Assembly (NCBI GenBank): GCA_040754625.1
Contig: JBFMCF010000084.1
Location: 1 to 39,516, forward strand
Direction of reading: 5' to 3'
From: a bacterium
GTDB taxonomy: Bacteria > JACRDZ01 > JAQUKH01
Length of the DNA stretch: 39,516 nt
Shown piece after piece: positions 13,612-37,947 of the stretch. The notes under the pieces were generated by a model. That model made no database searches and was not told where the DNA came from. It saw only the letters and a program-made list of their open reading frames with translations. The position numbers were made by a program, and so were the translations under genes. The stretch's first letter is position 1; each line of letters opens with the position of its first letter.

Positions 13612-14565
13612 ATGGAAAAAAAGGTTTATTTATTAAATAATGAAATTGCGTTTTCGCTGTTTGGAAGCAATGACAGGAATATTAATATTATTGAAGAAAA
13701 ATATGATGTCAAGCTTTTTTTCCGTGGAAATGAATTAATAATAAAAGGGCAGAAGAACACTGTAGAAAAGGTATTTTGTATTATTGAAGAGCTTATTAAA
13801 TTGATTAATAGCGGGCATTCAATAAACAGGGATGAAATAGATTGTGTTATTAAATCGCTGCAGGAAGAGGAAATACTCAGGGCGTCTGATATTTTAAATG
13901 AAGATTTATCGGTCTCAAGGCGGGACAGGCATATAAAACCAAAAACTGCCGGGCAAAAAAAATATGTTGATGCTGTAAGAAAATATGATATAGTGTTTGG
14001 AATAGGTCCGGCAGGGACAGGAAAGACTTATCTTGCGATGGCAATGGCTGTTTCAGCGTTAAAAAACAAGGAGGTGGACCGGATAATTTTAGTCCGGCCT
14101 GCCGTGGAGGCCGGAGAACGTTTGGGATTTTTGCCGGGTTCCTTTAGTGAAAAAGTGGACCCTTATTTAAGGCCGCTTTATGACGCGATTTATGATATGA
14201 TGGAGATTGAAAAAGTACAGAGGTTTATGGACAAGGGGATTATTGAGGTCGCCCCCCTGGCTTATATGCGCGGAAGGACCCTGAATAATTCATTTATTAT
14301 ACTGGATGAAGCGCAGAATACGACTTCTGAACAGATGAAAATGTTCCTTACAAGGCTTGGTTTTAATTCAAAAACAGTTATTACAGGGGACATAACCCAG
14401 GTTGATTTGCCGTCAAACCGTAAATCCGGTTTGATTGAAATACAAGACATACTCAAAAATATAGAAGGGATTGCATTTATCTATTTCAGCGGGAATGATG
14501 TTGTCCGCCATGAATTGGTGCAGAAAATAATAGAGGCTTATGCTAAAAGAGAAATTAAAAGATAG
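13612..14565 (+). CDS. phoH: PhoH family RNA-associated ATPase
   Basis: 317 residues. A KH-like N-terminal part (about 1-80) is followed by the PhoH P-loop domain with Walker A GPAGTGKT at 132-139, VRPAVEAGERLGFLPG, Walker B FIILDEAQN and sensor region VITGDITQVDLP. PhoH proteins are cytoplasmic ATPases or helicases linked to RNA decay and ribosome quality control. It leads the widespread phoH-pgpH-ybeY order and overlaps pgpH by 26 bp. There is no obvious ribosome site before ATG 13612, which lies 17 bp after the terminator T run. Confidence 0.95.
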   Translation: MEKKVYLLNNEIAFSLFGSNDRNINIIEEKYDVKLFFRGNELIIKGQKNTVEKVFCIIEELIKLINSGHSINRDEIDCVIKSLQEEEILRASDILNEDLSVSRRDRHIKPKTAGQKKYVDAVRKYDIVFGIGPAGTGKTYLAMAMAVSALKNKEVDRIILVRPAVEAGERLGFLPGSFSEKVDPYLRPLYDAIYDMMEIEKVQRFMDKGIIEVAPLAYMRGRTLNNSFIILDEAQNTTSEQMKMFLTRLGFNSKTVITGDITQVDLPSNRKSGLIEIQDILKNIEGIAFIYFSGNDVVRHELVQKIIEAYAKREIKR

Positions 14566-16033
14566 ATTAAAAAAAAGCAAAATCATTTTGTACTCGGACA
14601 TAAAAGGCAAAAAAATTGAATCAAGGCAGATAGAGATTATCTTGTCCCTGCTTGTTTTTTTGAGCGTTGTAACACTGCCCGAGAAATTTCACCTTATGCC
14701 CATAATAGGAAGAATTATGCTTATATCGCTTTTTGCTTTTTTAAGCGGTATTTACCTGTATTTATTCCAGCCAAAGGTTTTTAAATCAGAATCAAGATTA
14801 CTTATAACCGGGTTGATTATTGTGGTTTATTTTGTTTTGATTAAACTGCTTTTCTGGATGGACATATCGATTTACCTGGTACCCGCGGCCATTATAGGTA
14901 TTTTAATATCCACCCTGTTAAATCCAAGTCTCGCATTTTTTATAAGTATCCTGGCGGGAATTCTTGTCGGGATAATGAATAACAATACATGGAATTATTT
15001 CTTTTTTCTTTTGCTGACTAACTGGATTGGCATTTTCGCTGTATTTCATTTAAAAAGAAGAATAAGTATCCCCCTGGCAGGATTATTACTCGGTATAGGA
15101 AACAGCGTGGTCATCTTAATTATAAATTTGCTCAGCAATCATTATTCATCTTTCAGGACATGGCAGGAGGTCGGGTGGGGTTTTCTTGGCGGGCTCCTGG
15201 CCATTTCACTATCAAGTATTTTATTGATTGTTTTTGAAAATATATTTAACCTGACAACAGATATCAGGCTGATTGAGCTGACGGATTTGAATCATCCCTT
15301 GTTAAAAAATCTCGCGCTGGTAGCTCCCGGCACCTATCATCACAGCATAGTTGTCGGGAACCTTGCTGAATCGGCGGCGGAGTCGATTGGCGCAAACGGA
15401 CTTCTGGCAAGGGCAAGCTCATATTTTCATGATATCGGAAAACTCAATAAATCAAAATATTTTTCAGAAAATAACACTATTAAAATACACGACAAATTGA
15501 CCCCGAATATGAGCAGCCTTATTCTCATTTCTCATGTAAAAGACGGTGTCGACCTCGCGCATCAATACAGGCTGAGCGAAGGATTGGTAAATATTATCAG
15601 GGAGCACCACGGGACAAGTCTGGTTTCATTTTTTTACCAGGAGGCTTTAAAAGAAAACCCGTCTGAAAATTTGTCGGAACAAAATTACCGTTACCCGGGT
15701 CCGAAACCCCAGTCAAAAGAAGCAGGGATTGTTATGCTCGCCGACATTGTTGAAGCCGCCTCAAGGACTTTGAATAACCCCACCCCTAACCATATTAAAT
15801 CAATGATTAACAGGCTGATAAATGAAAAATTGAAGGATAATCAATTGGATGAATGCGAGTTAAGCATGCGGGACATCACAAAAATTATGCAGGTTTTTGA
15901 AAGGGTTTTAATCGGAATATACCACAGCAGGGTTGATTATCCTAAAACTGAGGATATCGTTGATGAAAATATTGATAAACAACTGGCAAAAGTCAGCCAG
16001 ATTGCGTATAAAAGAATTAAAAAAAGTAATTAG
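14540..16033 (+). CDS. pgpH: PgpH-type HD phosphodiesterase lacking the extracellular domain
   Basis: 497 residues of the 7TM-HD family, which hydrolyses c-di-AMP to pApA. About seven hydrophobic helices fill residues 32-235. The C-terminal HD domain keeps all main signatures: TYHHSIVVGNLAE, the HD pair in YFHDIGKL, ISHVKDGVDLA, REHHGT and MLADIVEAASRT. Known PgpH proteins are about 700 residues, with a large 7TMR-HDED sensor between the first and second helix. Here that interval is only about a dozen residues, so the external sensor is missing. The start overlaps phoH, the end overlaps ybeY by 71 bp. Confidence 0.92.
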   Translation: MLKEKLKDRLKKSKIILYSDIKGKKIESRQIEIILSLLVFLSVVTLPEKFHLMPIIGRIMLISLFAFLSGIYLYLFQPKVFKSESRLLITGLIIVVYFVLIKLLFWMDISIYLVPAAIIGILISTLLNPSLAFFISILAGILVGIMNNNTWNYFFFLLLTNWIGIFAVFHLKRRISIPLAGLLLGIGNSVVILIINLLSNHYSSFRTWQEVGWGFLGGLLAISLSSILLIVFENIFNLTTDIRLIELTDLNHPLLKNLALVAPGTYHHSIVVGNLAESAAESIGANGLLARASSYFHDIGKLNKSKYFSENNTIKIHDKLTPNMSSLILISHVKDGVDLAHQYRLSEGLVNIIREHHGTSLVSFFYQEALKENPSENLSEQNYRYPGPKPQSKEAGIVMLADIVEAASRTLNNPTPNHIKSMINRLINEKLKDNQLDECELSMRDITKIMQVFERVLIGIYHSRVDYPKTEDIVDENIDKQLAKVSQIAYKRIKKSN

Positions 16034-22610: not shown

Positions 22611-24500
22611 ATGAGTAAAAACAAACGCACACATATTTATACGGGCCTCGCGATAAGCGTATGTTCTGTGATATTTGTTTTGCTTTTTACCACATACCTG
22701 CATTTCTTTGAGGATTTTGAACGAAAAACACTGGACAGCCGCTTTAATTACCGCACAGATTACTATAATACGAAATACAGGGAGGAATTTGAAAATATCG
22801 TTATTATTGAAATAGATGATGAATCAGCCTCAAAATTGGGCAGGATCAGTGAATGGCCGCGGGGGTATTACGCGAGAGTCTTAGATTATATAAGCGAAGG
22901 CGGGGCAAAACAAATAGGTTTTGATGTGGGCTTTACTGAGAATTCAAAAAATGCGGAAGAAGATAACCTGCTTATTGAATCTATAAAAGAGTCGGGAAAA
23001 GTATATTCCAGTTATTATTTTTCCTCGAAACCGGGAACTAATGATGAAATAATACGCCACTTCGGTTATTCTTTCGGGAATGCACTGGACACCGCTATTT
23101 ACTGGGAAAAATATATTTTCCCGCCAATCCGGGGGATTGCGCAAAATTCCAAAGGCGCCGGATTTATTAATTTAAAACAGGACCGGGACGGGATAGTCCG
23201 CCGTATCCCGCTTTTTATAAAATACGAAGACAAGGCATATCCCCAATTTGCCGTCAAGATGGCAATAGATTACTTAAATATTCCAAAAGAAAAAATTTAT
23301 CTTGAAAAAGGCAAATATTTTTATTTTGATACTATTAAAATTCCTGTCGGGAAAGATAACCAGATGCTTGTAAATTACGCGGGTTATTATGTTTTCAGGT
23401 ATATCCCCTTTTGGAAAATTTACGAAGAAATTGTGCCGAGGGAATATTTCCAGGATAAAACAGTATTTATAGCCGCGACCGCGGCGGGGGCCTATGATTT
23501 AAGGTCAACCCCGGTTAAAGAAATATCCCCGGGTATTGAAATAAACGCGAATGCTTTTTTTACTATAATAAATGAAAATTTTGTGTTACAATTAAATATA
23601 CTGCAGGTTCTATTTATTTCGGCGGTGTTAAGTATAGCTTGTTTTATTTTGTCCAATTATTTGTCCCTTTGGATATCAATAATAACGACGGCAATTTTAT
23701 GGGTCCTGTATTTTACAGCCGCGTTGTATCTTTTCAAGAATAATAGTGTCTGGCTGCCTTTGGTCAGGCCGACGCTGGTTATTTTTACGAGTTTCACCGG
23801 AAATTTAGGTTATAAATATTTAACTGAAAGAAAACAGAAAAAATTTATCCAGGACGCGTTCCAAAGATATGTTTCTCCCGCGGTATTAAAAGAATTGCAG
23901 GAAAACCCTGATAAGGTTAAATTGTACGGGGAGGAAAAAGAACTTACGGTGTTATTTTCGGATATACGCGGTTTTACTACATTCTCAGAGAATCTTTCGC
24001 CAAAAGAGATTGTGGCGGTTTTGAACGAGTATTTCACCAGGATGGCAAAGGTTGTTTTTAAATATGACGGGGTGCTGGATAAATTTATAGGCGACGCGAT
24101 AATGGTGATTTTCGGAGCGCCTGTAATCCAGGCAAATCACGCGGAAAGGGCGTGTTTATGCGCCCTTGAAATGACGGAAGAAGCAGAAAAATTTTCCAGG
24201 GAACAGGAAGAAAAAGGGAAACACCGGTTTAGGATTGGAGTGGGAATTAATACCGGGAATATGATTCTCGGCAATATGGGTTCGGAAACTAAAATGGATT
24301 ACACGGTTATCGGTGATAATGTAAATCTTGGTTCACGGATAGAATCGCTCAATAAAGACTATAAAACAAATATTATTATCAGTGAAACGACTTTTGAAAA
24401 AGTTAAGGATAAATTTGCTGTAAAAGATTTAGGCTGTGTTACTGTCAAAGGAAGAAAGGCTGAAACTAAGATTTATGAACTTCTGCAGGGGAAAAAATAA
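22611..24500 (+). CDS. CHASE2-domain adenylate cyclase
   Basis: 629 residues. One N-terminal helix (about 11-31), a periplasmic CHASE2 sensor (about 35-330; VVIIEIDDESASKLG-like opening, WPRGYYARVL), three membrane helices (about 325-405), then a class III cyclase domain (about 440-625). Catalytic residues: metal Asp451 (FSDIRGF) and Asp495 (GDAIMV), purine-specifying Lys491 and Asp563, transition-state Asn572 and Arg576. The Lys/Asp pair points to ATP, so the product is cAMP. It senses an unknown periplasmic signal. Its last 26 bp overlap the barrel-like protein gene, tying the two by translation. Confidence 0.92.
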   Translation: MSKNKRTHIYTGLAISVCSVIFVLLFTTYLHFFEDFERKTLDSRFNYRTDYYNTKYREEFENIVIIEIDDESASKLGRISEWPRGYYARVLDYISEGGAKQIGFDVGFTENSKNAEEDNLLIESIKESGKVYSSYYFSSKPGTNDEIIRHFGYSFGNALDTAIYWEKYIFPPIRGIAQNSKGAGFINLKQDRDGIVRRIPLFIKYEDKAYPQFAVKMAIDYLNIPKEKIYLEKGKYFYFDTIKIPVGKDNQMLVNYAGYYVFRYIPFWKIYEEIVPREYFQDKTVFIAATAAGAYDLRSTPVKEISPGIEINANAFFTIINENFVLQLNILQVLFISAVLSIACFILSNYLSLWISIITTAILWVLYFTAALYLFKNNSVWLPLVRPTLVIFTSFTGNLGYKYLTERKQKKFIQDAFQRYVSPAVLKELQENPDKVKLYGEEKELTVLFSDIRGFTTFSENLSPKEIVAVLNEYFTRMAKVVFKYDGVLDKFIGDAIMVIFGAPVIQANHAERACLCALEMTEEAEKFSREQEEKGKHRFRIGVGINTGNMILGNMGSETKMDYTVIGDNVNLGSRIESLNKDYKTNIIISETTFEKVKDKFAVKDLGCVTVKGRKAETKIYELLQGKK

Positions 24501-26238
24501 GGCGTTAATAATTCTTTGTATATTTAGCATTATCTTATCAGTAAATTTTGCTTACGCGCAAAATGATACGGCACAGATGCCGTTAAAAGATACACCGGGA
24601 CCGGTTGAAACGGAAACCGCATTTGTTACCGGTGATATTCAAAAACAGCAGGAATGGTATAATTTTGAAAAATATAATCTCGTGGGTAATTGGACATATT
24701 CTTTAACAAATATCAAAATGAATGATAATCTTAAAGAAGTCGGGAAAGACTACGCGGGATTGAATCATAAACTAAGCTACTTGTTAATGGGCACAAGTTC
24801 CGGGTGGGATGTTTCGAACCTTGCCGATTTATTTTATAATCCATGGAGAGACAGGCTTATTGCGGAAACATTCCGTCTGGAAGCGGCAAAAGGCGGCACA
24901 AATATTAATATAGGCGACTTTTACCCGAGCTATTCAAGTATTACATTAGAAGGTTTAACTATCCGGGGCCTGGGATTTAAAAGGGTCTATTATAATGAGA
25001 GGCTTTTAGTCCAGGCTTTTATAGCCCAGTCCCAGAAAGCGGTTGAACCTGTTAAAGAAGATAAAAATGGAAACTCGGTAATTGACCAGGGAGAAGACGG
25101 AAACGGGAATAATATTCTGGATGTAAAGGAAGGAGATTTCCGCCAGCATATGATGGGCGGCAGGATTGAAAATAAATTCAGCCGTAATTTTAGCGCGGGA
25201 GCAAATTATCTCGCGGGAAGAGATGATATTTCATCTATTACTAATCCGCAGTCCGCCGATCCCGTGTCCGGCTTATATCCCGTGTTAAACAACAAAGTTA
25301 TTGGGCTGGACGGCCATTTTCATTTTTTTGATGACAGGTTAAAGGTGGATTCCGAGTATGGGGAAAGTAATTACAGGAAAGGAGACAAGGACACTACATT
25401 CACTGACCAGGCGGTTAACGCTAAAATAAATTTTTTAAGCAAATGGCTGCAATCCAGGATTATTTACCAGAAGGTTGACCCGAATTACCACAGCGAGGGG
25501 AACCCTTACCTGGAAACGGATAAAAAAGGATATAATTTTGAAAATGAGTTGATTTTGTCCAAAAAGTATTCTTTGTCCGGAAATTATGAAAAATATAACA
25601 ATAATGTTAATAAATTGCCGGTTGATACAACTATCGTTACAAAGGAACAGGAATTCAAGCTCAGGTATTACCCTGAATCGGGAAGCAGGGAATTTAAGTA
25701 TAAAAAGACAGCTAAAAACGGTACCCGCGCCAATGAAAAAGACACAATAGATGATACGTATGGAATAACCATCCGGAAAGATTACAGTGAAGAGACATGG
25801 GTAACGTATAATTTACAATATATAAAATATAAAGATAACTTGCAGAATACCAATGATTACACAGGTTACTCGGCGTATCTGTCATGGAATTGGGATATAA
25901 AGAAAGATAAATTCAGTTTGATACCTTACTTTAATTATAATTTATATAAATATAAAAACCTGGACCAGAAGCAAATATATTATTTGACAAATATCCAGTC
26001 GAGGATTGTTCTCTGGAAAAACAAGTGGGTTTTGGTCCCATACCTTGAATATGATTATACAAGCCAGAACGGGAGTAAAATTCTTGAGAGATTCAGCCGT
26101 GACCTGGAATCAAAATTTTATTTGTCCCAGAGTGTTTCATTTAGTTTAAAATACGGTATATTGAATAATAATGATGAAAATAACAATCTGGATTATTCTA
26201 TGGAAAAAGTCGGCGGTGAAATCACAGCCGTATTTTAA
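24475..26238 (+). CDS. Putative outer-membrane beta-barrel protein with calcium-loop motifs
   Basis: 587 residues from ATG 24475; the frame is open further back but this start gives a clean signal peptide ending AYAQ. The body is rich in alternating aromatic and polar strands with many Tyr, Asn and Lys, and the chain ends GGEITAVF, a terminal Phe typical of barrel proteins. Residues about 196-220 hold two EF-hand-like loops (DKNGNSVIDQGE and DGNGNNILDVKEG). Similar barrels with an inserted DxNxNxxxD loop occur in uncultured diderm bacteria, function unknown. It overlaps the cyclase by 26 bp and is followed by the FecR gene after 30 bp. Confidence 0.7.
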   Translation: MNFCRGKNKALIILCIFSIILSVNFAYAQNDTAQMPLKDTPGPVETETAFVTGDIQKQQEWYNFEKYNLVGNWTYSLTNIKMNDNLKEVGKDYAGLNHKLSYLLMGTSSGWDVSNLADLFYNPWRDRLIAETFRLEAAKGGTNINIGDFYPSYSSITLEGLTIRGLGFKRVYYNERLLVQAFIAQSQKAVEPVKEDKNGNSVIDQGEDGNGNNILDVKEGDFRQHMMGGRIENKFSRNFSAGANYLAGRDDISSITNPQSADPVSGLYPVLNNKVIGLDGHFHFFDDRLKVDSEYGESNYRKGDKDTTFTDQAVNAKINFLSKWLQSRIIYQKVDPNYHSEGNPYLETDKKGYNFENELILSKKYSLSGNYEKYNNNVNKLPVDTTIVTKEQEFKLRYYPESGSREFKYKKTAKNGTRANEKDTIDDTYGITIRKDYSEETWVTYNLQYIKYKDNLQNTNDYTGYSAYLSWNWDIKKDKFSLIPYFNYNLYKYKNLDQKQIYYLTNIQSRIVLWKNKWVLVPYLEYDYTSQNGSKILERFSRDLESKFYLSQSVSFSLKYGILNNNDENNNLDYSMEKVGGEITAVF

Positions 26239-26268
26239 AAGAGGGTGAATAGGAGATTTAAGGATAAT

Positions 26269-27813
26269 ATGTCAAAAAATAAATTTTATATTATATTCTT
26301 AATTTTAACAACTATGCCAATAACCCGTATTTTTGCGGCAAAAAACACAAAGGATGAAACCCAGGTCATTTATTACGAGGGTAAAGCGGAGGCTAAAAGG
26401 GCGCAGAAAGAGGAATGGGAAAATGTCAAGCTTAAAATGATGCTTTATCCGAAGGACAGGGTAAGAACAAAACTCCAGTCTAAGGTTGAATTAAAACTCC
26501 CGGACAACAGCATATTTAATATCGGGGAAAACACGACTTTTGATATACAAAAATTATTTACGGATAATACGTCCGGTGCTAAAAATTATTCTTTTAAATT
26601 GTTTGTCGGGGACATGGTCGGGAATATTGAAAAATTAAAAAAAGGGGACACCTTTGAAATAGAAACACCTGTCGCGCTAGTGGGCTTCAGGGGGACAACG
26701 GTATTTATTCATGTGGAGCCCAATGGGGAAACATGGATCGGGATGAGGAGAGGTTCAGGTTATATCCGTTCGATAAAGACAGGCGGTGAACAGGTGATTG
26801 AAGAAAACTTTTATTTTCTGCTCGGCACCGACGGGGCGTTTATCGGAAGCGGGGTTTTATCAGGGAGCGATATTGACCGTTTTAAAAACCTTGAGAAAAT
26901 AAAGGGCGAATTGATTAAAAAAGGCGAAGTAACTCCTCCAAAAATTATCTCAGTTGAAAAAGATAAAAATTTGGCGAGTATCAAGGGCCAGTCCGACCCG
27001 GCAAGCACAATTTATTTGGTTTCTTCCAGTGGACAGTCTCTTACAACAGCGGCGGATGAAAACGGCAATTTTACTTTTAAAATAAATTTTGGCGAAGACA
27101 CATCGCCGCCTGTAATTAAAATCACAACATCCGAATTTGGGAAAAAAGCCACAAATAAAAGGAATTTAAAAATAGTCGGATTGGTGGTTGATAAATTTGC
27201 GGCAGGGGTCCTGAATTTAACTTTTACGTCCATGAACAAGGATGGAGAAAAAAGCATGCAAACTCCCTACAAATTGGATGTTTCGAAAGAAGGCCTTAAA
27301 TTTTTTATCAACGGGGAAGAGTCTGATGTGAACGCAGGAGTCATAAGTACAACCTACATGCTTAACGAAGGAAGAAATGTTCTGGAATTCAGGGCAGTGG
27401 ACGGGGCAGGAAACGAGGCCAGGGAAACAAAAATAATTTATCTCGACACGATGCCTCCTAAAATATTAAATTTCAATGTTACTCCGTATAATATCAAACT
27501 GGAAGACACTGTGGAAATTTCAATTGAGGCACAGGATGAAGTTTCTGAAATGAAAAAGAACACCTTGCTGACTTTAACTCACCCAAAAGGGGCTTCATTC
27601 CAGTTGAACATGCCGTATGATTATACTTTAAAGAGATACACGGCCAGGCTGACCCCGGGTGAATTTGTTAAAAATGACCAGTTTCTTACAAGAAGGGCGG
27701 AAGGACAGTGGAAAATATCGGCTGAACCGGAGGATGAACTGGGGAACAAAACACCGAAACGTTTCGGATATTTTAACGTGATTGATTTACCTCCTCCTCC
27801 ACCGGACAAATAG
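26269..27813 (+). CDS. Exported FecR-domain protein with Ig-like modules
   Basis: 514 residues from ATG 26269, chosen for the signal peptide (ending RIFAA) and AGGA just upstream; GTG 26245 is an alternative. Residues about 60-175 form a FecR domain, with RVRTKLQSKVELKLPD and TPVALVGFRGTTVF, the usual TPxAxxGxRGT hallmark. Then two or three Ig-like beta domains (PPKIISVEKDKNLASIKGQS; SPPVIKITTS; DTMPPKILNFNVTPY) and a proline-rich end. FecR domains transmit periplasmic signals in TonB systems; free-standing ones with CHASE2 cyclases are a recurring but poorly understood pairing. Neighbours on both sides lie within 30 bp. Confidence 0.85.
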   Translation: MSKNKFYIIFLILTTMPITRIFAAKNTKDETQVIYYEGKAEAKRAQKEEWENVKLKMMLYPKDRVRTKLQSKVELKLPDNSIFNIGENTTFDIQKLFTDNTSGAKNYSFKLFVGDMVGNIEKLKKGDTFEIETPVALVGFRGTTVFIHVEPNGETWIGMRRGSGYIRSIKTGGEQVIEENFYFLLGTDGAFIGSGVLSGSDIDRFKNLEKIKGELIKKGEVTPPKIISVEKDKNLASIKGQSDPASTIYLVSSSGQSLTTAADENGNFTFKINFGEDTSPPVIKITTSEFGKKATNKRNLKIVGLVVDKFAAGVLNLTFTSMNKDGEKSMQTPYKLDVSKEGLKFFINGEESDVNAGVISTTYMLNEGRNVLEFRAVDGAGNEARETKIIYLDTMPPKILNFNVTPYNIKLEDTVEISIEAQDEVSEMKKNTLLTLTHPKGASFQLNMPYDYTLKRYTARLTPGEFVKNDQFLTRRAEGQWKISAEPEDELGNKTPKRFGYFNVIDLPPPPPDK

Positions 27814-27821
27814 TGTAAATT

Positions 27822-30800
27822 ATGGGAAACATATTATATTTTAAAGTAAATTTTATGTGGAAAAAAATTATATATATTTCTTTTTTGCTGTTTTTATTAT
27901 TATATAAATACAGCTACACAGCGGCTCCGTCTATGGCGGGCGGTTCAGGCCACAGCGCGATCATAAAATCAGACGGGACATTATGGACATGGGGATATAA
28001 TAACAAAGGGCAATTAGGGGATTCAACAAACATAGGTAAAAATATGCCGGCCCGGTTGGGAAATGATAATAAATGGGTGTTACTTTCCGCGGGGGACAAT
28101 CATACTGCCGCTTTAAAATCGGATGGGACCTTATGGACATGGGGGTATGATTCCTCCGGCCAATTGGGAGACAGCTCGAACATTGATAAAAATTACCCGG
28201 TCCAGATAGGAAATGACAACAAATGGTCATTGATTTCAGCCGGTGGATTGTATAATGCGGCTTTAAAATCCGATGGGACATTATGGGCCTGGGGTGATAA
28301 TACTGTCGGGCAATTAGGGGATTCAACCAATACCGGCAAAAATACGCCGGTTCAAATAGGGAATGAAAATAGCTGGATATTGGTTTCAGCAGGATACCAG
28401 CATACTTTGGGTTTAAAATCCAATGGGACATTATGGGCATGGGGATTTAATTATTCCGGCCAGCTGGGGGACAGCACAGGCGGAGTGGAAACTGATAAAA
28501 ATTATCCAATCCAGATAGGAAGTGATAAGAAATGGGTATCAGTTTCAGCAGGGGAGTTTCATTCTATAGCTTTAAAATCAGATGGGACATTGTGGACATG
28601 GGGATTAAATGATTACGGCCAATTGGGAGATTCGACAAACATGGATAAAAACGCACCGGCCCAGGTAGGAAGCGATAACAAGTGGATATTTATTTCAGGC
28701 GGATACCAGCATACCCTGGCTTTAAAATCCGATGGAACGTTATGGTCCTGGGGACGCAATACTTTCGGTCAGCTGGGGGATTCAACAAATATTGATAGAA
28801 ATACACCGGTCCAGGTAGGGAATGATAATAAATGGAAAACAGTCATTGCGGGGTATCAGCATAACATAGGCATAAAATCAGACGGGACAATATGGACATG
28901 GGGATATAACGTATATAATCAACTGGGAGACAGTACAAATATAAATAAAAATTATCCGGTGCAGATAGCAAGAGATTTTAGATGGAGCGAGGCTTCATCG
29001 GGAATTAATCATTCGACAGGCTTAAAATCCAACGGGACAATATGGGCCTGGGGTGATAATTCTTATGGCCAGTTAGGAGATGGTACAAATGGGGACAGTG
29101 ATATACCAATCCTGATTGATAGTAATAATGTGTGGACCGCGATATCCGCGGGAGGCAATCATACAATTGGTTTAAAATCCAACGGGACAATTTGGGCCTG
29201 GGGTTTTGATTCTTCCGGCCAATTGGGCGACAGCGCAAATATTGATAAAAATTATCCAATCCAGATAGGAAGTGATAACAAGTGGGTCTCAATCCTGGCA
29301 GGAGGGAACCACAGTATCGCTTTAAAATCTGATGGAACGTTATGGTCGTGGGGGTACAACTTTTACGGCCAGCTGGGAGACAGCACAAACATAAGTAAAA
29401 ACTATCCCGTTCAAATCGGGACTGATAATAAATGGGTGTCAATATCAGCGGGATTTTATCACACAATAGCTTTAAAATCGGATGGGACATTGTGGGCCTG
29501 CGGATATAATTTGTTCGGCCAGCTGGGAGACAGCACAACTTCAAGCAAAAACTATCCCGTTCAGATAGGAACTGATAATAAATGGGTTAAAGTGTCAGCG
29601 GGAGGCAACCATACCACAGCGTTGAAATCGGATGGGACAATATGGGCCTGGGGATACAATCCTTACGGCCAGTTAGGAGACAGCACAAATATTGCTAAAA
29701 ATTATCCCGTTCAAATCGGGACTGATAATAAATGGGTGTCAATATCAGCGGGGGATTATCATACAATAGCGTTGAAATCGGATGGGACAATATGGGCCTG
29801 GGGGTATAATTATTATGGCCAGCTGGGGGACAGCACAGGCGGAATAGAAACTGATAAAAATTATCCCATCCGGGTAGGAACCGATAATAACTGGGTTTCA
29901 ATATTTGCCGGGTGGGCCCATAACATTGCAAAAAAATCCGATGGAACATTGTGGTCATGGGGATATAATGATTATTATCAATTAGGAGATGGGACGTGGG
30001 CCGACAAAAATTATCCAGTGCAGATTTATAATGAACCGCCTGCTGTTTATTTAAACGCAAATCCTTTGTATGGCAGTCCTCCTTTGAACGTTAATTTAAT
30101 TGCTGAAGCAAATGACCCTGATGGAGAGATTGTAAGTTACGAATGGGATTATGAAGGTGATGCTGTTTATGACACAATGACAACGGACAGCACAATAAGC
30201 CGTGTATACAATACGACTTCTTATTTTGACATTTATTATCCAAAGGTCCGGGTTACGGATGACGGCGGTGCAACAGGTGAAACTTTTACAGCGGTGATGG
30301 TCTTTAATATTTTAAACCCGCCTACTGCCAACAGCCCGGTCAATGAAAGCAAATTAACCGATAAAAGGCCGAGATTGACTGTAAATAACACAAATAGCGC
30401 TTTTGAATACCCGTTGAATTACTTTTATGAAGTTTATACTGATTCAACGTTTACAGTGCTTTTTGACAGTTCGGTTGCGGTCCCCGGGAATTATTCTGAT
30501 TCAACAAATTCATGGACAGTTACGAAAGATTGTGTATACGGGACAAATTACTGGTGGAAATGCAGGAGCGCGCTTGAATCGACAGCTATTTATAGTAATT
30601 GGATGGCAACATCTGCGTTCAGCGTCGGGGAAATTGATAACACCCCGCCGGGTATCGACAGTGTTTATATCGTTGACCCTTTTAATACTGCGGTTGTGGT
30701 GAATTATTTTAAAAACGGGCAGGCGCAAAACGGGCTGATATTCGCTAAAATAAGTGATAATGTAGATCTTGGCAGCAGTATTATTTTTAAATACAAAAAA

Positions 30801-32255
30801 AACGGGGAGTCAAATTCAAATTTTATAGAAAAAATTATTAATATTGATCATGATATTATAATTCGCGGCAGTATAATAAAAAGCATCGTAATTTTGGCAT
30901 CAATAGATGCCGGTAAAATTACACCAAGCGGTATTAATTATATAATCGAAGTGTTTGATATGGCGGGCAATAAGACTGTAAAAAATGGATATTTGCGGAC
31001 AGAAGTAAATAATTACAAGATTGTTTTTCCCACCTGGACATGGAAGATGATTTCATTTCCGTTGTTATTGCTTAATGAAAAAAGTTTTGGATCTGTGCTT
31101 GGCCCTTTGGGAGACAGGAGGGTCTATAAATGGGATCCTTTTAAGAAAGAATATTCCAAAACATATGATACAACTTTTGAACCTGGAGACGCTTTCTGGT
31201 TTAAAATCAAGGAAGATATCCCGTACGATTCAGTTCAAATCAAAGTAAACGGTATCTCGGTTGATCCCGGCAATGTGCCTGTTATTAATTTGCCGCCGGG
31301 CTGGTCGCAGGTCGCAAATCCATATTTTTATAAAATTGCAAGTTCAAAGATCAAGGTCGGGCAGGATACTACAGAGCTCTATGTAAGCGATACGGCAAAT
31401 ATATGGGTGGAAAACCAGTTTTTAACATATGATTTTGACAGTTTAAGCGGCAAGAGGTCATATTTGGATTTAACTAATATTACGCCGGAGATTGGTTTCT
31501 GGATGAAAAACAGGAGCGATAAAAACATAAACATTATTTTTCCCCAGTTAGATGCGGATGCAACAGGCGCGATGGCGGTGAATTCTCCTTCGCATAAAAT
31601 AAAAAACGATGGATGGGGGATAAAATTGACAGTTCAGACAAAGAATTATATTGATACAAACAATTATATCGGTTTTATGCCGTCTGCAAAAAATACTTAT
31701 GATTATTTTGATTTATCAGAACCTCCTCCTGTTGATGACGAAGGTATTTCCCTTTATTTGCCGCATACAGACTGGGGACGGGATAACGGGAAATACAGGA
31801 CTGACTACCGTGCATGCGGAGAATATGGAATTTTTAATAAGACAAATTTTGATTTTATAGTCGAAGCTTATAGAAAAGATACGGCAATATTATCGTGGGA
31901 AATCATTAACCCGCCGGTTAATTACAATCTTATTCTTTATGATAAGAAAGATAATAAAAAGATAAATGTTAATGACATGAAAAACTATTCGCTTGGTTTC
32001 ACAAGCACTGATATAAAGCGTGAATTCAGCATAATTATCGAATGGGACAATATCTTCCCGGTAGATTCCCTGGGGATGTCGGATTTAGACTTAAATCGCA
32101 TAATTGACGGTGAAGACCTTTCGATTTTTAGTCAAACATTCGGGAAATCGCAGAATGACGGCTATTGGAACCCTGACGCGGATTTAAACAAAGACAGTAT
32201 AGTAGACGGAAGCGATTTATATATTTTAGGAAACAATTTCGGAAAAAATTATTGA
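27822..32255 (+). CDS. Giant secreted RCC1-repeat, PKD and dockerin-like protein
   Basis: 1477 residues (1466 if ATG 27855, which gives the better signal peptide MWKKIIYISFLLFLLLYK). Residues about 40-740 hold fourteen RCC1 repeats of about 50 residues, each with SDGT(L/I)W-WG-N--GQLGDST. Fourteen equals two seven-bladed propellers; the join between repeats 7 and 8 is irregular (IARDFRWSEASSG). A PKD domain (about 742-830, SYEWDYEGD), a fibronectin-like stretch, and a domain with WTWKMISFPL and GWSQVANP follow. The C-terminus (about 1415-1477) has two calcium loops, DLDLNRIIDGEDL and DLNKDSIVDGSDL, of dockerin type. Probably cell-surface or secreted, binding proteins or glycans. Starts 8 bp after the FecR gene. 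Confidence 0.85.
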   Translation: MGNILYFKVNFMWKKIIYISFLLFLLLYKYSYTAAPSMAGGSGHSAIIKSDGTLWTWGYNNKGQLGDSTNIGKNMPARLGNDNKWVLLSAGDNHTAALKSDGTLWTWGYDSSGQLGDSSNIDKNYPVQIGNDNKWSLISAGGLYNAALKSDGTLWAWGDNTVGQLGDSTNTGKNTPVQIGNENSWILVSAGYQHTLGLKSNGTLWAWGFNYSGQLGDSTGGVETDKNYPIQIGSDKKWVSVSAGEFHSIALKSDGTLWTWGLNDYGQLGDSTNMDKNAPAQVGSDNKWIFISGGYQHTLALKSDGTLWSWGRNTFGQLGDSTNIDRNTPVQVGNDNKWKTVIAGYQHNIGIKSDGTIWTWGYNVYNQLGDSTNINKNYPVQIARDFRWSEASSGINHSTGLKSNGTIWAWGDNSYGQLGDGTNGDSDIPILIDSNNVWTAISAGGNHTIGLKSNGTIWAWGFDSSGQLGDSANIDKNYPIQIGSDNKWVSILAGGNHSIALKSDGTLWSWGYNFYGQLGDSTNISKNYPVQIGTDNKWVSISAGFYHTIALKSDGTLWACGYNLFGQLGDSTTSSKNYPVQIGTDNKWVKVSAGGNHTTALKSDGTIWAWGYNPYGQLGDSTNIAKNYPVQIGTDNKWVSISAGDYHTIALKSDGTIWAWGYNYYGQLGDSTGGIETDKNYPIRVGTDNNWVSIFAGWAHNIAKKSDGTLWSWGYNDYYQLGDGTWADKNYPVQIYNEPPAVYLNANPLYGSPPLNVNLIAEANDPDGEIVSYEWDYEGDAVYDTMTTDSTISRVYNTTSYFDIYYPKVRVTDDGGATGETFTAVMVFNILNPPTANSPVNESKLTDKRPRLTVNNTNSAFEYPLNYFYEVYTDSTFTVLFDSSVAVPGNYSDSTNSWTVTKDCVYGTNYWWKCRSALESTAIYSNWMATSAFSVGEIDNTPPGIDSVYIVDPFNTAVVVNYFKNGQAQNGLIFAKISDNVDLGSSIIFKYKKNGESNSNFIEKIINIDHDIIIRGSIIKSIVILASIDAGKITPSGINYIIEVFDMAGNKTVKNGYLRTEVNNYKIVFPTWTWKMISFPLLLLNEKSFGSVLGPLGDRRVYKWDPFKKEYSKTYDTTFEPGDAFWFKIKEDIPYDSVQIKVNGISVDPGNVPVINLPPGWSQVANPYFYKIASSKIKVGQDTTELYVSDTANIWVENQFLTYDFDSLSGKRSYLDLTNITPEIGFWMKNRSDKNINIIFPQLDADATGAMAVNSPSHKIKNDGWGIKLTVQTKNYIDTNNYIGFMPSAKNTYDYFDLSEPPPVDDEGISLYLPHTDWGRDNGKYRTDYRACGEYGIFNKTNFDFIVEAYRKDTAILSWEIINPPVNYNLILYDKKDNKKINVNDMKNYSLGFTSTDIKREFSIIIEWDNIFPVDSLGMSDLDLNRIIDGEDLSIFSQTFGKSQNDGYWNPDADLNKDSIVDGSDLYILGNNFGKNY
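27937..30030 (+). repeat. Tandem RCC1-coding DNA repeats, about 150 bp period
   Basis: Fourteen degenerate units conserved at DNA level. Bases 29404-29452 and 29704-29752 are identical over 49 nt, exactly 300 bp (two units) apart, showing recent duplication or conversion. Units 4 and 13 share an insertion encoding GG-ETDKNYPI. Confidence 0.85.
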
Positions 32256-33454
32256 GGTTTTAATATTCTGCTTTCATTTTCCTGGTAAATCCAATTGATA
32301 CTGACAAGAATAGAAGTTTGGCCTACCTCTGCGCCTTCAACATACGTAACCTGCAATTTTGCATAACGGTTATTATTATTTCTCAGACAATAGCTGTGTC
32401 CGATAACTACCGCCGCGCTTTCAGAGTATCCTGTTTCAGGGGCCTCGCTGATTTCGGATATCTGGATTATTCCCATATCCTGTATTGCGCCTCCCGGGAC
32501 ATATAATGATAAAGTATTCCCGTTTTTTTTGACACCAATATCGCCTTTTAATGTTTCTTTTTTATGAAAATATTCTGTTGAGAAATCAAAAGATTCATCA
32601 GGAATAAGATTGACTGTCCCGCCCTTTAATACCCCGTAATCTTTAGATAATTGTTTTACAGCGGATGAATCAAAAAATATCGGGTCCCCGCCTGTTTGAA
32701 TTATGAAATCATTTTCAAAAATATAAACTGATTTTCCAAAATAATGTTCAACATTATTGTTTTCCCTGTATTCGGAAGATTTTGTCCAATCAAAAACTAC
32801 TTTAAATTTTGCTGAATCAATTCTGTTAATTTCAAAATTTTTTAAAGTAAACTTGATATTGCTGTATTTTTTAAATTCCATATTGAATTTATCCTCTATT
32901 TCTTCATAACGGTTATCATCCGAATCCGCGTAGGAATTAGAAAAATATTTCATGAATAAAGAAGGGTCTTTGTTATCAAATGCAATTGAAAAAATATTTT
33001 TAACCAGTTCGGAATAATGCTGCTCGGGGTTTTTTAAATAAGTTACCGGGTATTCATTGAATATTTTCATTCCGGCATCATCATTGGTTGAAATGCGGAC
33101 ACATAATATATATGTTTTCTTGTCTTCAGGTTCAAATTCGTAATAAAACGATTTTGTCAAAGTTTCCCACAAATATCCTGAATCTAATGATATATCAACA
33201 ATGGCAGAAGAGAAATAATTTTCGGGGGGGATGACGTTTAAATAAATTTTGCCCCATTCTCCGAGATTTTCAGGGGTCAGTATTATTGGTTTATTTAAAA
33301 TATTGCCTATAATATTGACCTTGAAGGAATTGACATCAATTTTCTTATTTAATGGGGCGGGTATCGCGCGGGGAGCATATTCTTGTAGCTCCTGGGAGAA
33401 GGCGATATTTATTATAAATATAAATGAAATAATTATTAATATAAAATATTTCAT
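32249..33454 (-). CDS. Secreted protein of unknown function
   Basis: 401 residues with a signal peptide ending AFSQE (about residue 20). Residues about 140-235 (SLFMKYFSNSYAD, then FKVVFDWTKSSEY) resemble an NTF2/SnoaL-like fold; the rest is beta-rich without recognised motif. It is notably AT-rich. It is convergent with the RCC1 gene, their ends overlapping by 7 bp (32249-32255), and divergent from the biotin operon. No ribosome site or terminator is evident. Transcription-level interference with the RCC1 gene is possible. Confidence 0.7.
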   Translation of the reverse strand: MKYFILIIISFIFIINIAFSQELQEYAPRAIPAPLNKKIDVNSFKVNIIGNILNKPIILTPENLGEWGKIYLNVIPPENYFSSAIVDISLDSGYLWETLTKSFYYEFEPEDKKTYILCVRISTNDDAGMKIFNEYPVTYLKNPEQHYSELVKNIFSIAFDNKDPSLFMKYFSNSYADSDDNRYEEIEDKFNMEFKKYSNIKFTLKNFEINRIDSAKFKVVFDWTKSSEYRENNNVEHYFGKSVYIFENDFIIQTGGDPIFFDSSAVKQLSKDYGVLKGGTVNLIPDESFDFSTEYFHKKETLKGDIGVKKNGNTLSLYVPGGAIQDMGIIQISEISEAPETGYSESAAVVIGHSYCLRNNNNRYAKLQVTYVEGAEVGQTSILVSINWIYQENESRILKPQ

Positions 33455-36648: not shown

Positions 36649-36699
36649 TTGATTGATTAAATAATGCCGATACAATTTATATTAAATGAAGGTATTATT

Positions 36700-37947
36700 T
36701 TGAAAATAATAAAATTATCTTTAATTTTTATCCTGACGGGTATTTTTCTTTTTAAATCGTATATAAAGGCCTCTGAATGCGTGGGGTGCCATACCAAAGT
36801 TAATCCCGGTATTGTCGCCGACTGGCAGTTAAGTAAACACAGCAATAATGATATTGACTGCTCTTTTTGCCATGGGTTAGAACATAAGTCAGAGAGGGAT
36901 GTTGAAAAAGTCCAAATGCCGACAACAGAAATCTGCGATAATTGCCATGAAGAACAAGTAAAGCAATTTAAAAACGGTAAACATTCACTGGCATGGATTT
37001 CAATGAATGCGATGCCCACGGCACACTGGCAGCCAAAATCAATGGTTGAGGGGATGAAGGGCTGCGGTGGATGCCATAAAATCGGGTTAAAAACCAAGGC
37101 GGAAATACGGGAGTTAAAAAAGGAAAGCCTGGGATATGGAATAGCTTCATGCAGTGTATGCCATACCCGGCATACTTTTTCAAAAGAGGAAGCCAGCCAG
37201 CCACAGGCCTGCCAGACCTGCCATATGGGATTTGACCATCCCCAATGGGAGATGTATTCTTTCTCCAAACACGGTGTCAGGTATTTATTGAAGCAAAATA
37301 AAACTCTTCCTGAATCTATTGCCGCTCCTGCATGCCAGACCTGCCATATGCAGGACGGTAATCACAATGTACGGACAGGGTGGGGATTTTTAGGAGTGAG
37401 GCTGCCTCTGCCCGATGATAAACAATGGGCTTCGGACCAAACGGTTATTCTCCAGGCCCTTGGCATTCTTGACCCCGGCGGGAAGCAAACGGACAGGGTC
37501 AATATTGTAAAGGCGGCCAATCTATTCAGATTAACGGAAGACGACTGGCAGAATGAACGTAATAAAATGATAAAAATCTGCAGCAAATGCCATTCAAAAA
37601 ACTTTGCAAAAAAGGAATTGGAAAAAGGCGACCAGATTATTAAAGAAGCGGATTTTCTGATGGCTGAAGCGATCCGGATAGTTGTAGGGTTATATCAGGA
37701 TTCAATACTTCCGAAACCAAAAAATTACATTTATTCTTTCCCTGATTTGCTCACATTCCATGATGCACCGACGGTAATAGAACAAAAGCTGTCAGTGATG
37801 TTTTTAGAACACCGCATGCATACTATACAGGGCGCGTTTCATGTCAATTATGATTATGCAATGTGGTATGGATGGAGTGAAATGCAGAAAGATTTGACAG
37901 AGATAAGGGCAATGGCTGAAAACTTACAGAAGGATTACAAAAAATAA
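36700..37947 (+). CDS. Octaheme cytochrome c, hydroxylamine oxidoreductase-like
   Basis: 415 residues from TTG 36700 (AAGG seven bases upstream; signal peptide MKIIKLSLIFILTG to about residue 25); ATG 36664 has no ribosome site. Eight CxxCH heme motifs at 27, 54, 79, 122, 151, 171, 212 and 294, followed by a heme-free helical C-terminus (about 305-410). Heme count, spacing and the C-terminal helices match the HAO family; heme 4 (CGGCH, 122-126) would be the catalytic position. Whether the Tyr that cross-links to it in oxidative HAO is present (candidates in NYDYAMWYG, 383-391) needs alignment. Members without the link reduce nitrite or hydroxylamine to ammonium. The next gene is an ammonium channel. 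The physiological direction is inference. Confidence 0.85.
   Translation: MKIIKLSLIFILTGIFLFKSYIKASECVGCHTKVNPGIVADWQLSKHSNNDIDCSFCHGLEHKSERDVEKVQMPTTEICDNCHEEQVKQFKNGKHSLAWISMNAMPTAHWQPKSMVEGMKGCGGCHKIGLKTKAEIRELKKESLGYGIASCSVCHTRHTFSKEEASQPQACQTCHMGFDHPQWEMYSFSKHGVRYLLKQNKTLPESIAAPACQTCHMQDGNHNVRTGWGFLGVRLPLPDDKQWASDQTVILQALGILDPGGKQTDRVNIVKAANLFRLTEDDWQNERNKMIKICSKCHSKNFAKKELEKGDQIIKEADFLMAEAIRIVVGLYQDSILPKPKNYIYSFPDLLTFHDAPTVIEQKLSVMFLEHRMHTIQGAFHVNYDYAMWYGWSEMQKDLTEIRAMAENLQKDYKK

Follow-up and report, generated by a model that had tools for sequence, protein, structure and literature searches.

We analysed a stretch of 39,516 nucleotides (the window), which makes up an entire contig; its source is an uncultured bacterium of a small phylum, with a genome of 2.7 Mb. 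We examined four plus-strand genes at positions 22611-32255 that encode a CHASE2-type adenylate cyclase, an outer-membrane beta-barrel, a FecR-domain protein and a giant protein with RCC1 repeats. Judged by gene neighbourhoods, the cyclase, the barrel and the FecR protein form a real recurring module that is kept together across many phyla, and the giant RCC1 protein stands outside this wider module as a local add-on. We consider it fairly probable that the three module proteins act as an envelope-spanning sensor, in which a signal would pass from the barrel through FecR to CHASE2 and emerge as cyclic AMP (cAMP).

The cyclase-barrel-FecR module and its recurrence

The four genes are tightly packed: the cyclase and barrel genes overlap by 26 base pairs (bp) (24475-24500, the barrel starting at the ATG at 24475), 30 bp (26239-26268) separate the barrel from FecR, and 8 bp (27814-27821) separate FecR from the fourth gene. 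This spacing and the export of three of the four products had been pointed out in an earlier note on this DNA, and both observations hold: the coordinates were confirmed, the barrel and FecR carry signal peptides, and the N-terminus of the fourth protein is signal-like. Such export is ordinary for an envelope locus. The phylum sample that we searched comprised the window genome (G000), its sole close congener (G001) and two more genomes. In G001 the same four genes are spaced by -23, +58 and then +1 or -50 bp, depending on the choice of start codon, and the identities to the window proteins are 82% (cyclase), 69% (barrel) and 71% (FecR). The congener shares this close arrangement, which is therefore not a product of chance. 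In both genomes the close packing starts 5' of the cyclase, with a pseudouridine synthase gene 25 bp upstream in the window and another gene 13 bp before that one.

To place the locus in a wider context, we searched 290 genomes for CHASE2 cyclases, found relatives in 155 and fetched about 100 gene neighbourhoods (denoted below by L-numbers). A FecR gene was found within four same-strand genes of the CHASE2 cyclase at 32 of 104 loci, compared with 0 of 329 distant background open reading frames (ORFs), which bears out the earlier statement that CHASE2 with FecR is a recurring neighbourhood, and 20 of these 32 loci also contain a barrel-like gene. At L070, L071, L075 and L137, FecR (by Pfam) and a barrel are fused in one protein beside the CHASE2 cyclase, and the nearest cyclases found beyond the phylum (40% identity) are among those adjoining such fusions. 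Another FecR-barrel fusion, at L143, lies on the strand opposite to its CHASE2 cyclase.

The barrels adjoining other cyclases are homologues of that of the window, with E 8e-11 by phmmer and then E ≤ 1e-13 by profile for members still outside the family at that stage. Across the family, phmmer and hidden Markov model searches gave E values from 8e-11 to 1e-107, and the full-length window barrel matched that of L212 with E 1.6e-33. The profile family comprised 12 members at first and was then extended to 50 loci, and the family motif is GD-x-x-P-x-x-S-x-L-x-L-x-G-x-x-V-R-G; an alignment of 12 diverse barrels gave no motif usable for scanning. Used alone as the query of the named genomes' contigs, the window barrel returned zero matches. 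A barrel-only scan of the named genomes with three closer barrels as query yielded the 50 loci, mostly from KSB1, Neomarinimicrobiota, Calditrichota, Ignavibacteria/Melioribacter and Bacteroidota.

At these loci the genes follow the order X, FecR, barrel and CHASE2 cyclase, with median gaps of 10, 26 and 20 bp. FecR and X were each present upstream of the barrel at 46 of the 46 loci with upstream sequence (one FecR gene, at L240, was identified by hand reading and not by the ORF filter), and a CHASE2 protein was present downstream at 43 of 43 loci where the contig continues, four being cut by the contig end. X is a family of secreted proteins of about 350-430 amino acids (aa) with the motifs P-x-F-x-W and Y-x-W, encoded directly upstream of FecR (L234-L283, L093, L123, L169, L122, L111, L201 and L200) and matched by no Pfam family. 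The window shares with this operon a barrel of the same family, an adjacent FecR and an adjacent CHASE2 cyclase in a tight arrangement, but differs in gene order, in its longer FecR (about 230 aa in the operon), in lacking the extra N-terminal immunoglobulin-like (Ig-like) part of the operon's barrel, and in X, which is absent upstream of FecR and was not found in the window genus (G000 and G001). Homology of X to the Ig-like part of the window FecR or to the fourth protein was rejected (profile E > 1).

Two statements of the earlier note can be refined with these data. It had treated all four genes as one coupled unit, which stands for the cyclase, barrel and FecR with their linkage (46/46 and 43/43) and single copies, but not for the RCC1 protein, whose head is replaced in G001; a universal four-gene unit is rejected since RCC1 is not conserved. 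It had also held that homologous cyclases lacking the other genes would speak against coupling. Most CHASE2 cyclases do lack them (at 72 of 104 loci FecR is missing within four genes on the same strand), but the cyclases beside this barrel family do not. Among eight strong profile members outside the seeds, FecR adjoins the barrel in five and a CHASE2 protein in two, and FecR and the barrel are therefore the tighter pair outside the core group.

Predicted structures and a proposed signalling path

Hydropathy gives the cyclase a single N-terminal transmembrane segment, followed by a hydrophobic stretch of several passes (residues 323-375). Together with the Pfam domains (Table 1), this is the layout of a CHASE2-type class III cyclase, with CHASE2 outside, transmembrane segments, and the catalytic domain inside. 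The nearest catalytic domains in the PDB are those of CyaB and CyaC, and a motif search with alignment to CyaC located the full catalytic set, D451, D495, K491, D563, N572 and R576, which comprises the metal aspartates, the adenine-selecting Lys/Asp pair and the transition-state Asn/Arg pair. The cyclase is the sole class III (PF00211) protein and the sole CHASE2 protein of the window genome. Because both are single-copy, any CHASE2-class cAMP signalling in this organism would be expected to run through this locus. G000 also encodes five cyclic-nucleotide (cNMP)-binding proteins, namely three free-standing domains, an MscS-type channel with a cNMP domain and a cNMP-GAF regulator, which are likely readers of cAMP. 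The channel (L220, contig C52 of G000) carries its cyclic-nucleotide-binding domain at the C-terminus and is a possible cAMP target.

Table 1 Positions of the genes and domains of the four-gene locus within the window
Feature	Position	Strand	Evidence
CHASE2-type class III adenylate cyclase, 629 aa	22611..24500	+	Pfam CHASE2 E 1.7e-54, Guanylate_cyc E 7.2e-32
Periplasmic CHASE2 sensor domain, residues 22-337	22674..23621	+	Pfam coordinates
Cytoplasmic cyclase domain, residues 443-623	23937..24479	+	Pfam coordinates
Outer-membrane beta-barrel, 587 aa, family without Pfam name	24475..26238	+	Signal peptide, C-terminal F, AlphaFold, Foldseek
Periplasmic FecR-domain protein with Ig-like C-terminal part, 514 aa	26269..27813	+	Pfam FecR E 2.6e-10, signal peptide
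Relay fold like the C-terminal cell-surface signalling domain of PupR, residues about 30-210	26356..26898	+	AlphaFold, Foldseek
Giant secreted, predicted surface protein, 1477 aa, lineage-specific fourth gene	27822..32255	+	14 RCC1 repeats, sub-threshold PKD match (Pfam)
Exchangeable head, 14 RCC1 repeats, probably two seven-bladed propellers	27930..30050	+	Repeat spacing of about 50 residues, 150-bp tandem arrays
Locus-specific conserved tail, residues 969-1412	30726..32057	+	Similarity to G001 fourth protein
Dockerin-like terminal segment, two D-x-D/N-x-N-x-x-I/V-D-G-x-D loops	32058..32252	+	Sequence

The AlphaFold model of the barrel is all-beta with ~20 long antiparallel strands, and its top Foldseek matches in the PDB are outer-membrane porins and the exporter AlgE (E about 1e-7). 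The Pfam scan gave no match for the barrel, and a TonB-dependent receptor was ruled out by the absence of both plug and STN domain. The FecR domain is modelled better, with a predicted local distance difference test score (pLDDT) of ≥ 85 in most 10-residue blocks of residues 30-210, and it aligns with the C-terminal cell-surface signalling domain (CCSSD) of PupR (6ovk, solved in complex) with a root-mean-square deviation of 2.5 over 137 columns and E 6e-6; 4m0h was matched as well. The CCSSD is the periplasmic part of PupR that meets the outer-membrane transducer. The Ig-like part of FecR resembles the biofilm adhesin Bap.

The Pfam name and the PupR-like fold could suggest a classical cell-surface-signalling anti-sigma regulator with the cyclase as a separate system, and the earlier note had called it a FecR signal-type protein. 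The window resembles FecA-FecR-FecI and PupB-PupR in combining an outer-membrane barrel with a periplasmic FecR/CCSSD fold, but its output is a cyclase. FecR has neither a DUF4880/anti-sigma domain nor an inner-membrane helix by Pfam and sequence; a signal peptide takes the place of the cytoplasmic domain, and the periplasmic CCSSD-like fold is all that it shares with the classical regulators. Pfam detected no extracytoplasmic function (ECF) sigma factor and no TonB-dependent transducer with STN among the window proteins scanned (three ORFs left out), and the barrel lacks the TonB plug and STN. Moreover, FecR is the sole FecR-domain protein of G000, as is its counterpart in G001, and it adjoins the only cyclase of the genome. 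We therefore rejected FecR as an anti-sigma factor; since the anti-sigma part is absent, FecR is unlikely to signal to a sigma factor, and the classical arrangement as a whole is highly improbable.

The closest precedent, an experimental one, is known from Sinorhizobium meliloti, where the response of the CHASE2 cyclase CyaK to a protein outside the cell depends on NsrA, a barrel of the outer membrane (PMC7529298, PMC13001267). This NsrA-CyaK/CyaD1/CyaD2 system, like the window, pairs an outer-membrane barrel with CHASE2 adenylate cyclases. The pSymB gene directly before a CHASE2 cyclase encodes a FecR-TPR-barrel protein of 1219 aa, which we take to be NsrA because the described layout (barrel at residues 600-1200) and the position before the cyclase fit. 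FecR, TPR and barrel are thus joined in one protein there and FecR and barrel are encoded by separate genes in the window; the readout in Sinorhizobium is the CRP-type regulator Clr, and the system has neither an RCC1 nor an X protein. By analogy, the window locus may work like NsrA-CyaK, with no homology throughout implied: the precedent is architectural only, as the NsrA barrel is not detectably a member of the window family.

Other published neighbourhoods are less similar. A Campylobacterota cluster combines a CHASE2 cyclase and a FecR-domain outer-membrane protein with a TPR protein and a phosphodiesterase (PMC9239204); compared by description only, it differs from the window in these last two proteins and in having no RCC1 protein. 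The Burkholderia BiofilmReg operon places a CHASE2 protein beside a FecR-domain protein, but there CHASE2 belongs to a histidine kinase and the FecR domain to a LysM protein, and no barrel is described (PMC5192318). Hence both FecR with CHASE2 and a barrel with a CHASE2 cyclase are already described (PMC9239204, PMC5192318, PMC7529298). A literature search, with most subscription journals outside its reach, found no description of the barrel family, X or the X-FecR-barrel-cyclase operon.

We propose that the barrel responds to something outside or within the outer membrane, that FecR, with its PupR/FecR periplasmic signalling fold, would carry the state of the barrel across the periplasm by contact with the barrel and with CHASE2, and that CHASE2 would set the activity of the cytoplasmic cyclase, whose cAMP would be read by the cNMP-binding proteins of the genome. 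This path is supported by the linkage in the barrel scan (FecR 46/46, CHASE2 43/43) and the five of eight independent barrels with FecR, by the FecR-barrel fusions that adjoin CHASE2 cyclases, by the fact that cyclase, CHASE2 and FecR each occur once in the genome, all at this locus, by the PupR-like fold of FecR, by the NsrA-CyaK precedent, and by the presence of cNMP-binding proteins. Several observations weigh against it: three of the eight independent barrels lack both FecR and a cyclase beside them and three more have FecR but no cyclase, the confidence of the barrel model is modest (mean pLDDT 62), the window-family profile does not detect the pSymB (NsrA) barrel, and none of the five cNMP hits of G000 has a CRP-type DNA-binding domain by eye.

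The flow could also be reversed: the barrel, FecR and the fourth protein would make up a complex for surface assembly or export, whose assembly state the CHASE2 cyclase would only monitor from the periplasm, as an envelope-integrity checkpoint with no extracellular ligand. AlgE is among the nearest barrels, secreted cargo is encoded directly behind FecR, and the Ig-like domains of FecR resemble Bap, all of which suit an exporter. Yet the cargo varies while barrel and FecR stay constant, other phyla need no large cargo gene, and NsrA functions as the receptor of a protein from outside the cell (PMC7529298). We regard the reversed flow as unlikely.

If the path from barrel to FecR to CHASE2 is correct, it would explain how a periplasmic CHASE2 sensor learns of the outside; what CHASE2 domains sense is for the most part unknown, a point made for the Burkholderia CHASE2 kinase (PMC5192318). 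It would also generalise NsrA, the single experimental case, and assign a testable role to two unnamed families, the barrel and X. The X-FecR-barrel-cyclase operon occurs in cultured hosts such as Melioribacter, which are open to testing. More tentatively, and with a chance that we put well short of even, a barrel, a FecR relay and a CHASE2 cyclase could constitute a general transmembrane receptor class of which NsrA-CyaK is a fused member, with a fixed slot for an exchangeable secreted accessory (X in most phyla and, in the window genus, the giant protein with its conserved tail and swapped head) and a ligand-facing part that evolves by head replacement.

The fourth gene and its exchangeable head

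The fourth proteins of the window and G001 share only residues 969-1477 (57% identity) and a PKD stretch (37%). In G001 the head is PKD/beta-helix-like (PKD by Pfam, beta-helix by eye), replacing RCC1, and an RCC1 head 58% identical to that of the window occurs on a different protein at another G001 locus. Since the G001 gene keeps the tail and differs in the head, comparison of the two sequences identifies the fourth gene as one for a constant-tail, variable-head protein. The tail had no further match across the five genomes searched, and no RCC1 partner was seen at any fetched cyclase locus outside the genus. G003, another genome of the phylum, encodes many RCC1-repeat proteins (contigs C321, C349, C307, C315, C149, C288 and C47); the window genome encodes one only.

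Dockerin-like tails are also present on other proteins of G000 and G001, and cohesin-domain matches number 4 in G000 and 12 in G001, of which at least three in G001 are on proteins with a lipobox (by eye). At L225, L227 and L231 of G001, small single-cohesin lipoproteins are encoded beside large dockerin-tailed surface proteins. A lipoprotein-anchored cohesin-dockerin display is thus possible in G001, and G000 has its four cohesin matches too. The fourth protein would be secreted and probably held at the surface, and display through cohesin lipoproteins that bind its dockerin-like end is plausible. It may be an environment-facing adaptor of the sensor or its displayed cargo.

Alternatively, the fourth gene could be a passenger with no tie to the sensor, encoding a surface protein with a dockerin tag and sharing the transcript of the operon in front of it, which would be compatible with the proposed path through the first three proteins. 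We consider this a serious prospect that falls a little below even. The missing RCC1 head in the congener, the presence in both genomes of several cohesins and of comparable dockerin tails on a number of other proteins, and the lack of an RCC1 partner at other cyclase loci are all as expected for a passenger. Against this, both species have at this position a gene whose product carries the tail of ~440 residues (57% identity), and a secreted X is always present in the wider family (46/46). A secreted partner at the same site in the window genus and the wider family suggests a functional slot.

Surroundings of the locus

The locus has the same flanking genes in G001, with the pseudouridine synthase gene upstream and a convergent gene and biotin genes downstream. 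The convergent gene (32249-33454, minus strand) encodes a secreted protein of 401 aa that Pfam does not match convincingly, and in both congeners it overlaps the fourth gene by 7 bp. A sequence scan gave 81 promoter-like sites vs 46 in shuffles, and 14 terminator-like sites vs 11, counts that are uninformative about transcript boundaries. Directly after the biotin genes, positions 36664-37947 encode a secreted-type multihaem cytochrome, and the PhoH and 7TMR-HD hydrolase pair at 13612-16033 is an ordinary housekeeping cluster.

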